From Gammaproteobacteria bacterium (GTDB taxonomy: Bacteria > Pseudomonadota > Gammaproteobacteria > Natronospirales > REEB76), in contig DATEHU010000017.1 in the NCBI GenBank assembly GCA_035279405.1, positions 124,001 through 188,000 of the forward strand: 64,000 bases of DNA, given 5' to 3'. The notes beneath the pieces are model-generated. The model made no database searches and was not told the DNA's origin. It saw nothing but the letters and a program-made list of their open reading frames with translations. Shown in pieces: positions 11,574-15,304 of this stretch. Made by a program: the position numbers and the translations under genes. Position 1 is the first letter of the stretch. Each line of letters opens with the position of its first letter.

Positions 11574-11906
11574 ATGAATGCGCGCAACCGCTTCCGTCTG
11601 CTGTTTGCCCTGAGCCTGGTAGCGGCGTTGACCTTTGTATCTGCCGGCCCGGTGAGCGCGTTGGCGCAATGCTGTCAAGCCGAGGCGGCGCAAATATACG
11701 ACGCCCGTTGCGACACGCACGGTACGTGTGGGCACGGGCAGGACCTGTCGGTCTGCTGTGGTGGCGTCTGCACGGCCCCGGCGATTTCCGCGGCCCCTCT
11801 GATTCCCACGCGCGCGCCGCAGGACCGGAGTTATGCTCGCGGACTTCCCGTCTCACCTGTCCTCCAATGGCTCGAACCTACCGACACTCCGCCCCCGAGG
11901 CGCTGA
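11574..11906 (+). CDS. Small secreted Cys-rich protein of the copper cassette (CopL/DUF2946-like)
   Basis: A 110-residue protein with a signal peptide (NRFRLLFALSLVAALTF, cleavage near residue 30). The mature part carries QCCQAE, a CDTHGTCGHG stretch and a CCGGVC cluster, so it could bind copper or another soft metal. Small proteins of this kind (CopL, DUF2946) often precede copA in Xanthomonads and relatives, where they affect cop expression or bind Cu. The Pro/Arg-rich tail (TDTPPPRR) is also seen in that group. It is immediately upstream of the CopA-CopB fusion. The family call is tentative; the cysteine content, export signal and position are what can be seen. Confidence 0.6.
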   Translation: MNARNRFRLLFALSLVAALTFVSAGPVSALAQCCQAEAAQIYDARCDTHGTCGHGQDLSVCCGGVCTAPAISAAPLIPTRAPQDRSYARGLPVSPVLQWLEPTDTPPPRR

Positions 11907-12002
11907 CCTCCCGCAACCGATAAACGCCCGCACCCGCAGGGGCGCGGGGAATCGTCCAACCGGGCGTCCCATGTGCGTCCGGCACGATGCCGGAGGTGTT
12001 TC

Positions 12003-14633
12003 ATGTTTTCCGTCTCTCGCAAGGCGCCACTTGGTGCGCCGCTCACCCTGTTTGCAGCTCTGATACTCGCCGTGGGCATGCAGCCCGCGTCCGCCAGAAC
12101 CTACGATCTGACCATCGCGCGCACGCCGATCAACATCACGGGCACGCCGACGACGGCCGTTACCGTCAACGGCGTGTTGCCCGGCCCGACGCTGAACTGG
12201 CACGAAGGCGAGCACGTAATCATCCACGTGACCAACAAGCTCAAGGTGCCAACCTCGATCCACTGGCATGGCATCCTTTTGCCGGCAGACATGGACGGGG
12301 TGCCGGGCATCAGCTTCATGGGCATCGCGCCCGGTATGACCTTTACCTACCGCTTCACGGTCAAGCAGGCCGGCACCTACTGGTACCACAGTCACAGCGG
12401 CGGCCAGGAGCAGGAAGGGTTTTACGGCGCTATCGAGATTACTCCGCAAGAACTTCCACCCTTTCACTACCAGCGTGACTATGCCGTGGTGCTTTCAGAT
12501 TGGAGCGATGAGTCGCCCGGGCAAATCATGGCGAACCTCAAGAGCCAGCCCGATTACTACAACTACGCGCAGCGCACCGTGCCGGAGTTTTTCCACGACA
12601 TCGCCGCCAAGGGGCTCGGCGCGACGCTCTCCGATCGCCTGACGTGGGGGCGGATGCGCATGAGCCCGACCGACCTCAGCGATGTAACCGGCGCGACCTA
12701 TACCTATCTGATGAACGGCAAGACGGATGCGCAAAACTGGACCGCGCTCTACACGCCTGGCCAGCGCGTGCGTCTGCGCCTGATCAACGCCTCCTCGATG
12801 ACGTACTTCGACGTGCGCGTGCCGGGGCTCCAGATGACTGTGGTGCAGGTGGACGGACAGGACGTCAAGCCGGTCACGGTGGATGAGTTGCGCATGGCAA
12901 TCGCCGAAACCTACGACGTGATCGTGACGCCGAAGGACGGCCGTGCCTACACGATCTTCGTCCAGAGCATGGATCGTTCCGGCTACGCGCGCGGCACGCT
13001 CGCCCCGCACGCGGGGATGGTGGCGGCGGTGCCGCCGATGGATCCGCGCCCGTTGCTCACTATGCGTGATATGGGCATGAACATGAGCGGCATGCAGGGT
13101 ATGGACAACATGCCGGGCATGAAGATGGAGAGGCGCGAGGCCGAGCCGACCGCAAGTCAGCCGGCAATCGAAGACATGCCCATGCCGGAGCACGCCATGA
13201 GCATGAAAAGTACAAACACAACGCCCCCGGCGCAGGTCTCGCACGCCCCTCACTCGAATCTACCCGCGGCCGCAGGTAGTAAGGAAAAGAGGCCGGCATC
13301 GGATATGTCTGAGATGGCCGGCATGATGCACGCCATGACATTGCCGGCTGCGTCGGCCACGGCCGCGACACCGGCGTACGCGCCACCCGTGTACCCCGGC
13401 GTGGGCGTCGCGCATATTGCCGAGGCACCCATGAGCCGTCTCGACGATCCCGGCAACGGCCTGCGTGGCAACGGGCGCGTGGATCTTGCCTATGCCGATC
13501 TCGAAAGTCTGAAGCCGCATCCCGACCCGGCGCCCGACCGCACCATCGTGCTGCATCTCACCGGCAACATGGAACGTTACATGTGGTCGTTCAACGGCAA
13601 GAAGTACGCCGAGTCGGTGCCGCTCAAGATGCATTTCGGCGAGCGTGTGCGCATCGTGATGATCAACGACACCATGATGAATCATCCGATTCATCTGCAC
13701 GGCATGTTCATGGAACTGCAGAACGACCATGGGGTACACAATCCGCTGCTGCATACCGTCAACGTGCAACCCGGCGAAACGCTGAGCGTGCTGGTCACGG
13801 CGGATGCTCCCGGTGGCTGGGCGCTGCACTGTCATCTGCTCTATCACATGGAAGCGGGCATGTTCCGCGAAGTGCTGGTGATGCCGCCGCCCGGCGCCAC
13901 GGACCCGGCGGTCTATTCGACGCCGGCTTTCGCCGATGCCCGCGGCCACACGACCGGTGTTCCGTCGCCGCCCCAAGAACGATTCACGATGGCGGACACG
14001 AAACTCCACCGGCAGGTGCTGCTCGATCAACTCGAATACCAGTCCGGCCTCGGCGCGAGTTCCGATGCCCGCGCCTGGGATGCGCAGGCGTGGTTCGGCG
14101 GCGATTACCGGAAGCTGTGGCTCAAAACCGAAGGCACCCGCAGCGGCGGTCATACCGAGGACGCCAATCTGAGCACCTTCTACGATCGCGCGTTCAGTCC
14201 ATACTTCGACTTCCAGGCCGGCGTGCGTCACGACTTCGGCGGTGGGCCGGCGCGCAACTGGGCGGCCTTTGGCATTCAGGGGCTCGCGCCGTACTTCTTC
14301 GACGTTGAACTCACGGGCTACCTCGGCCCCGGCGGGCGCACGGCGGCGCGCGCCAAGCTGCGTTATGAGTTGCTCTTTACGCAGCGTTTGATTCTGGAGC
14401 CCGAACTGGAGGCGAATTTCTACGGGCGCGACGATGCCGCGCGCCAAATCGGCAGCGGCCTGAGCGATGTCTCTCTTGGCTTCAGGCTGCGCTACGAATT
14501 CAGTCGCAAGTTTGCGCCATACCTGGGCATCGTCTGGCGCGAGCGTTTCGGCAAAACTGCTGATTTCGTGCGTGCGCGCGGTGAGCGCCCCGACGATCGG
14601 CAATGGGTCGCGGGCTTGCGCGTCTGGTTCTGA
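12003..14633 (+). CDS. CopA-CopB fusion: multicopper oxidase joined to outer-membrane copper resistance barrel
   Basis: An 876-residue protein. Residues 1-31 form a Sec-type signal peptide ending QPASA. Residues 32-626 are a CopA/PcoA-type multicopper oxidase with all four copper motifs: HWHG (near 87), HSH (near 130), HPIHLHG (near 561) and HCHLLYHMEAGMF (near 610). A Met-rich region (GMNMSGMQGMDNMPGM and later Met/His clusters) lies between the second and third cupredoxin domains. From about residue 663 the sequence is CopB: LLDQLEYQ, DAQAWFGGDYRKLWLKTEG, AGVRHD, GLAPYFF and a terminal aromatic residue (WF) as in outer-membrane barrels. In other bacteria copA and copB are separate genes. 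The ATG at 12003 has CGGAGG 6 bases upstream. The protein should oxidise or sequester periplasmic Cu(I). Confidence 0.88.
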   Translation: MFSVSRKAPLGAPLTLFAALILAVGMQPASARTYDLTIARTPINITGTPTTAVTVNGVLPGPTLNWHEGEHVIIHVTNKLKVPTSIHWHGILLPADMDGVPGISFMGIAPGMTFTYRFTVKQAGTYWYHSHSGGQEQEGFYGAIEITPQELPPFHYQRDYAVVLSDWSDESPGQIMANLKSQPDYYNYAQRTVPEFFHDIAAKGLGATLSDRLTWGRMRMSPTDLSDVTGATYTYLMNGKTDAQNWTALYTPGQRVRLRLINASSMTYFDVRVPGLQMTVVQVDGQDVKPVTVDELRMAIAETYDVIVTPKDGRAYTIFVQSMDRSGYARGTLAPHAGMVAAVPPMDPRPLLTMRDMGMNMSGMQGMDNMPGMKMERREAEPTASQPAIEDMPMPEHAMSMKSTNTTPPAQVSHAPHSNLPAAAGSKEKRPASDMSEMAGMMHAMTLPAASATAATPAYAPPVYPGVGVAHIAEAPMSRLDDPGNGLRGNGRVDLAYADLESLKPHPDPAPDRTIVLHLTGNMERYMWSFNGKKYAESVPLKMHFGERVRIVMINDTMMNHPIHLHGMFMELQNDHGVHNPLLHTVNVQPGETLSVLVTADAPGGWALHCHLLYHMEAGMFREVLVMPPPGATDPAVYSTPAFADARGHTTGVPSPPQERFTMADTKLHRQVLLDQLEYQSGLGASSDARAWDAQAWFGGDYRKLWLKTEGTRSGGHTEDANLSTFYDRAFSPYFDFQAGVRHDFGGGPARNWAAFGIQGLAPYFFDVELTGYLGPGGRTAARAKLRYELLFTQRLILEPELEANFYGRDDAARQIGSGLSDVSLGFRLRYEFSRKFAPYLGIVWRERFGKTADFVRARGERPDDRQWVAGLRVWF

Positions 14634-14647
14634 AAAAGGAGCATTCC

Positions 14648-15304
14648 GTGAAAAGACATACCGAACATGTTCTGGTCGGCGTCGGCGTCTTGGCCGCGAT
14701 CGTAATTGGCCTTGGCCTTTTTGTCTGGTCCGGCATTTACAACATAGGCGCCGACGATCACCATTTGCGGGTCACATACAGGGTGCTGCAAATCCTGCGC
14801 GATCGCTCGATCCGGGCGCGCGCGGACGACATCCAGGTGCCAAACCTCGACGACCCGCAACTGATTCTGAAGGGCGGCAGGCAGTACGCGGCGATGTGTG
14901 CCCAGTGCCATCTCGAACCCGGTATCGGGAATTCCGAGCTGCGCGAGGGCATGTACCCGCAGCCGCCGAATCTCTCGCAGGAGCATTTCGATCCCAGGGT
15001 CGCGTTCTGGACGATCAAGCACGGCATCAAAATGAGCGCGATGCCAGCCTGGGGCCAGAGTCATGATGACGCGACGATCTGGAGCATGGTGGCCTTCATG
15101 GGGAAACTTCCCGGCATGACCCCCGAACAGTACAAGGCCACCGTTGCCAAGCTGCCGCCGGGTGAGGATACGGACATGCATGCGGACGAGGGGCATCCCC
15201 ATTCGCATGCCGTACACGGACGCATGACAACGCCGGCACCCGGGATGACCTCGATGCCGGGCAGGACTGCCCCGCCTTCCGCAGGGACGGGCAGCGGTGA
15301 CTGA
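14648..15304 (+). CDS. Membrane-anchored c-type cytochrome
   Basis: A 218-residue protein with an N-terminal membrane anchor (about residues 8-30) and one haem c site, CAQCH, near residue 85. A later MSAMPAW motif offers a methionine as the sixth ligand. The C-terminal tail is rich in His and Met (DMHADEGHPHSHAVHG), which suggests metal binding. The GTG start is supported by AAAGGAG 6 bases upstream and lies 14 bases after the CopA-CopB gene, so the two are co-transcribed. It may carry electrons from Cu(I) oxidation by the neighbouring multicopper oxidase; that role is inferred. Confidence 0.82.
   Translation: MKRHTEHVLVGVGVLAAIVIGLGLFVWSGIYNIGADDHHLRVTYRVLQILRDRSIRARADDIQVPNLDDPQLILKGGRQYAAMCAQCHLEPGIGNSELREGMYPQPPNLSQEHFDPRVAFWTIKHGIKMSAMPAWGQSHDDATIWSMVAFMGKLPGMTPEQYKATVAKLPPGEDTDMHADEGHPHSHAVHGRMTTPAPGMTSMPGRTAPPSAGTGSGD

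Follow-up and report, generated by a model that had tools for sequence, protein, structure and literature searches.

A predicted single-chain CopA-CopB protein with a Sec-like export signal in a gammaproteobacterium

The window analysed here is a stretch of 64,000 nucleotides from a gammaproteobacterial draft genome of 59 contigs. It carries a gene in which a CopA-type multicopper oxidase is followed, in the same frame, by a CopB-type outer-membrane barrel. Judged from its sequence, the product is a genuine single-chain CopA-CopB (PcoA-PcoB) protein. We consider it likely that the chain is a cuprous oxidase exported by Sec and tethered to its partner barrel in the outer membrane, at the periplasmic mouth. 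It is the same kind of protein, in a different lineage, as the fused PcoA-PcoB that Hernandez-Montes et al. 2012 reported in one sentence for five Legionella species (PMC3548706); besides that paper, no other mention of a fused PcoA-PcoB or CopA-CopB was found in the literature searched.

Domains of the fused gene

The gene is an uninterrupted frame on the forward strand, running from an ATG at 12003 to a TGA at 14631-14633 and encoding 876 amino acids (Table 1). Pfam orders the domains of the chain as Cu-oxidase_3, Cu-oxidase, Cu-oxidase_2 and CopB. The CopA half matched the NCBIfam model TIGR01480 (copper_res_A) with 790 bits against a cut-off of 479, and the CopB half matched PF05275 with 281 bits against a cut-off of 27 (E 2.4e-85 to 5.7e-84; profile positions 3-208 of 208). 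With both families far above their cut-offs in one frame, the claim of an earlier note that CopA and CopB share one polypeptide is confirmed. The four CopA copper motifs that it had described hold as well: all 12 T1/T2/T3 ligands are present (residues 87, 89, 129, 131, 561, 564, 566, 609, 610, 611, 615 and 620), are invariant across the aligned relatives and are kept in every fused form that covers them. The barrel half matched the crystallised PcoB (PDB 7pge, phmmer 1.3e-60) and the chain ends in VWF, which together with the PF05275 match and 12 modelled strands agrees with the CopB-type barrel ending in WF that had been proposed. In this genome CopB and full-length CopA were each found only at this locus.

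The earlier note had also called for a structure prediction, which we ran with AlphaFold on residues 32-876 using 88 aligned rows (pLDDT 87.2, pTM 0.86). Both the oxidase and the barrel were well modelled, the barrel with 12 strands at model positions 638-844 (the model starts at residue 32), and pLDDT fell below 50 only in the Met-rich insert and in linker residues 648-658. The model of a Legionella-type fused form, made with row L155 left out of the alignment, was poor (pTM 0.36) and was used solely for its strand count; 12 strands were predicted.

Table 1. Coordinates of the fused gene, its parts and its neighbours in the window
Feature	Position	Strand	Basis
Small secreted Cys-rich ORF upstream of the fusion	11574..11906	+	No Pfam family
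Shine-Dalgarno-like GGAGGTG, 5' of ATG 12003	11992..11998	+	Sequence
CopA-CopB fused gene	12003-14633	+	One open frame
Signal peptide, residues 1-31 (MFSVSRKAPLGAPLTLFAALILAVGMQPASA), Sec-like, without twin arginine	12003..12095	+	Sequence; h-region hydropathy
CopA/PcoA-type multicopper oxidase domain, residues 32-627	12096..13883	+	TIGR01480, Pfam, AlphaFold pLDDT mostly >90
Copper motif HWHG, residues 87-90	12261..12272	+	Aligned relatives
Copper motif HSH, residues 129-131	12387..12395	+	Aligned relatives
Met-rich CopA insert, predicted disordered; 18 Met in residues 351-470	13059..13361	+	Alignment, AlphaFold
Copper motif HPIHLHG, residues 561-567	13683..13703	+	Aligned relatives
Copper motif HCHLLYHMEAGM, residues 609-620	13827..13862	+	Aligned relatives
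Pro-rich linker, residues 628-668 (~41 residues)	13884..14006	+	Alignment, AlphaFold, linker comparison
CopB/PcoB-type 12-stranded outer-membrane barrel, residues 669-876, ends WF	14007..14630	+	PF05275; PDB 7pge phmmer; AlphaFold
c-type cytochrome (CAQCH), likely start GTG 14648, downstream of the fusion	14648..15304	+	Pfam Cytochrome_CBB3 5.2e-15

The joint, related fusions and their origins

A search for single chains covering both families, as the earlier note had suggested, found them in two other gammaproteobacterial genomes, on one further contig (L096) and in the sampled Legionellales. The fusion in genome G276 is 66% identical to that of the window over 848 residues and the fusion in G165 is 44% identical over 881 residues. 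In the class sample, PF05275 was detected in 117 of 369 genomes, and inspection of the other long frames left canonical CopB fused in three (G000, G276 and G165); no further fusions were found in 398 genomes sampled from the phylum. Among the genus-mates compared, only two have copA and copB; the two genes are separate and lie side by side, copA with Tat signals and copB with its own signal peptide. Absence of the fusion from all close relatives, which the earlier note had named as evidence against it, was seen only in part: copA and copB are indeed separate in these two genus-mates, but the homologues closest in sequence are fused chains.

The joint had been placed at about residues 627-662, without a stop. 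This region is the linker, and the frame is open throughout it. The linker occupies the place of the CopA stop codon and the CopB signal peptide, with no stop inside; no hydrophobic segment lies between the two domains of the fused chain, and the copB signal peptide is absent. What remains is a reduced, Pro-rich CopB N-terminal region with two His. The same region is short in the genus-mates too, indicating that the shortening was not caused by the fusion. The G276 linker is homologous to that of the window (0 of 5000 shuffles were as good), and the G165 linker, of nearly the same length, gave a weaker match (60 of 5000 shuffles). From the end of the CopA motif to DQLE there are 53-54 residues in three diverged fusions.

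That an assembly or sequencing artefact joined two neighbouring genes is extremely improbable. The draft state of the genome and the separate genes in both genus-mates with copAB would be compatible with such an artefact; however, a lost stop would have kept the copB signal peptide, the GC content is even across the joint, and both the fusion and its linker have homologues in G276. Given that the copB signal peptide is missing and that two other genomes have homologous fusions with similar linkers, the fusion is not a missed stop. A frame of the latter kind was seen in L019 (1037 residues), where a frameshifted CopA end runs into copB with its signal peptide intact, and it was rejected as a true fusion. 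The long frames L020, L021, L023 and L025, as well as those of G594, G606 and G657, which were the longest in the phylum sample outside the class, proved to be separate genes in different frames. Contig matches spanning residues 34-876, which could have been taken for many fusions, were separate adjacent genes by frame, except L096.

L096 (contig VBNY01000029.1) is the sister of a separate copA-copB pair, L121, and is a separate, recent fusion event inside a clade of separate Tat-type copA-copB. Like the window chain it joins canonical CopA and CopB in frame, and unlike it L096 has a recent separate origin and retains a CopB N-terminus rich in His and Met; the start of the L096 chain, with the export signal, lies off the contig. 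Aligned with L121:7640-8100, the fused joint of L096:1-1978 lacks exactly the stop codon and the CopB signal peptide, and the two joints together give a clean view of how a copA-copB fusion arises.

A divergent type of CopB was fused in all 11 complete cases inspected (L026-L036). A twelfth, L038 (G131), is cut by the contig end with both domains present; the trees wrongly label this truncated fused form 'sep'. The divergent fused clade was found throughout the sampled Legionellales, which were identified through matches to plasmid records of Legionella anisa, L. fallonii LLAP-10, L. adelaidensis and Aquicella lusitana. The fused forms of L. fallonii and A. lusitana sit on complete plasmids, and those of the Legionellales are annotated merely as multicopper oxidase or are unannotated. 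The Legionella proteins share the domain order, the Sec-like signal and all oxidase ligands with the window chain, but are only about 33% identical to it. Their CopB half is strongly diverged, with PF05275 E-values of about 1e-21 to 6e-31 compared with those given above for the window.

The CopA tree unites the window with G276 and G165 in one clade (SH-aLRT 97), and grouping the window CopA with the genus-mates was marginally rejected (p-AU 0.045). The CopB tree places the window and G276 with the separate CopB of the genus-mates (support 95), and a single CopB clade of all three fusions was not rejected (p-AU 0.207). The window clade and the Legionellales fall on one side of a CopA-tree branch with a support of just 57.8, and joining them in one CopB clade was disfavoured (p-AU 0.081).

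Two oxidases, L065:2008-4251 (L065_2008) from Opitutaceae and L037:1503-3569 from genome G020, have Sec-like signals and C-terminal beta-rich, barrel-like extensions that score below the CopB cut-off. They are possibly further oxidase-barrel fusions with other barrels.

Export signal and gene surroundings

Among chains with readable N-termini (that of L096 is not), the Tat motif RRx[FLIVM][LIVMTQ] was found in 98 of 100 separate CopA compared with none of 15 fused forms, which mostly belong to one clade, so that the counts are not independent events, and which include L037 and L065_2008. The Tat signal is usual but not universal in CopA/PcoA, being missing in 2 of the 100 separate proteins. 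The most hydrophobic 15-residue stretch had a median hydropathy of 2.15 in fused forms (1.83-2.59) versus 1.48 in Tat-type CopA (0.98-1.90). The signal of the window chain reads SRKAPL with no RR, and its Leu/Ala-rich h-region has a mean hydropathy of 2.33, above the Tat-type median. In L022, the nearest fused homologue, the signal keeps SRRR without the following F/L, so its assignment to Sec is softer and ambiguous. Three separate CopA of one clade (L080 and L088, and also L128, which was too short to be included in the counts) likewise have Sec-like signals, indicating that the switch from Tat to Sec is not confined to fusions. The difference between fused and separate CopA does not appear in the earlier note, and no description of it was found in the literature searched.

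As the CopB half has no signal peptide of its own, its export depends on the CopA-side signal. Tat transports proteins that are already folded and is the export route of PcoA/CueO-type oxidases (PMC7558416, PMC8456105). The absence of the Tat motif from the fused forms would fit the need of the barrel to cross the inner membrane unfolded, via Sec, on its way to BAM.

The c-type cytochrome encoded directly after the fusion is 54% identical to the one that follows the separate copB in genus-mate G006 (L040), indicating that the fusion occupies the cop locus of the genus. It carries a membrane anchor at its N-terminus and a tail rich in His and Met, and is a possible electron partner of the oxidase. 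Small secreted ORFs directly precede the fused genes of the window, G276 and G165 as well as the separate copAB of G006; those comparable to the one in the window are L157:10543-10914 (-), L158:5482-5814 (+) and L040:4689-5126 (-). They belong to no Pfam family, are rich in Cys (in the window and G276 at least) and have Pro-rich tails (PPPRR in the window, PPPKR in G276 and RPPRI in G165).

These surroundings bear on whether the chain is mainly a ferroxidase or another metal oxidase, serving iron handling or electron transfer and not copper detoxification. At the G276 locus (L157:10923-14754), an Fe2+ transport protein of the P19 family (PF10634), an OprB porin, a 4Fe-4S membrane protein and a TonB receptor adjoin the fusion, suggesting a link with iron uptake, and a ferroxidase role therefore keeps some plausibility. 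The L. fallonii fusion likewise lies near an iron reductase and cytochrome c3, the cytochrome of the window would suit electron transfer, and PcoAB has been proposed to oxidise Fe(II) (He et al. 2017, PMC5566968). However, the CopA half belongs to TIGR01480 and has the Met-rich insert, no iron genes were found beside the fusion in the window, and the same locus of the genus-mate has copA-copB, the cytochrome c and a CusA-like pump. We regard a mainly iron-related or electron-transfer role as unlikely.

Tethering at the outer membrane and the barrel copper site

In the arrangement that we favour, Sec would carry the fused chain, unfolded, across the inner membrane and BAM would insert the C-terminal 12-stranded CopB barrel in the outer membrane, leaving both termini in the periplasm. 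There the CopA domain would fold and take up copper; maturation of CutO and CueO likely occurs in the periplasm (PMC8456105), which makes copper loading in this compartment plausible. The short flexible linker would hold the CopA domain at the periplasmic mouth of the barrel, where it would oxidise Cu(I) to the less toxic Cu(II) beside its outer-membrane partner. Such tethering would take the place of docking between two separate proteins. The earlier note had expected a tether to the outer membrane and had called this a new layout. Such a tether would follow naturally from the periplasmic termini of PcoB (PMC9210255) and the 12-stranded model; the layout is not new, as it was reported in 2012 (PMC3548706).

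Separate CopA/CopB or PcoA/PcoB (E. coli pco, P. syringae cop, Caulobacter pcoAB) have the same families, gene order and predicted folds, and the genus-mate's separate copAB even shares its cytochrome c partner with the window fusion. They differ in being two proteins, CopA with a Tat signal and CopB usually with its own signal, whereas the window encodes one chain with a Sec signal. PcoA and PcoB co-occur, with genes that are usually adjacent (PMC3548706). The role of PcoB is disputed: its 12-stranded barrel has a pore that narrows and is obstructed towards the periplasm, and copper import was proposed (PMC9210255), whereas work on Caulobacter showed that PcoA is stabilised by the N-terminal region of PcoB, for which docking was proposed, together with efflux of copper (PMC12509749). 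The direction of copper flow in the fused chain is inferred, as is the activity of its oxidase.

In classical autotransporters the passenger domain is N-terminal and a barrel of 12 strands forms the C-terminal part. The fused chain has the same order, and its barrel might deliver the oxidase to the cell surface; we hold this to be very unlikely, since the PcoB pore is obstructed towards the periplasm, the barrel belongs to the CopB family and not to an autotransporter domain, and the passenger would be a compact, globular oxidase, which as a separate protein does its work in the periplasm. An analogy, between unrelated families, is the Cyc2-type fused porin-cytochrome of iron oxidisers (PMC5566968), where a redox domain also precedes an outer-membrane barrel, but as a small cytochrome plug in place of an oxidase of ~600 residues.

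The chain might also be a polyprotein, exported whole and cut in the linker to release a free periplasmic CopA and a CopB barrel. The linker is Pro-rich and partly predicted to be disordered, and with no signal on the CopB half co-export followed by cutting would be workable. Against this, the linkers showed no conserved motif for cleavage, their length is held in the three diverged fusions, and the Tat motif is missing, even though Tat would be available to a free CopA. Cleavage thus has a low probability in our assessment, and we retain the tethered oxidase as the preferred reading.

The reported high-affinity Cu(II) pair of E. coli PcoB, D97/E207, corresponds to D675/R787 in the window chain, as mapped by an ungapped 7pge alignment with numbering inferred from the PcoB chain length. 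The equivalents are D/K in G276, D/E in G165 and L096, and other residues at both positions in the Legionellales, whereas 33 of 49 CopB rows have E at the 207 position in a tabulation of the top six residues only. Copper conduction by the window barrel may thus be altered or lost, and in some fused forms the barrel may hypothetically be more an anchor or an altered channel. No description of an altered copper pair in fused forms was found in the literature searched. We raise only tentatively, as rather doubtful, the broader idea that the fused forms make up a functional class of their own: cuprous oxidases anchored in the outer membrane that had to exchange Tat for Sec because of the BAM-inserted barrel, with a changed copper site (E207 to R/K here, both residues in the Legionellales) and a barrel that serves as anchor or altered channel and not as the PcoB copper pore.

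The contrast between Tat and Sec signals provides a clear, falsifiable prediction about export. The natural fusions represent a 1:1 PcoA-PcoB complex that should survive purification, which would make the interaction of the two proteins, their topology and the direction of copper flow directly testable.
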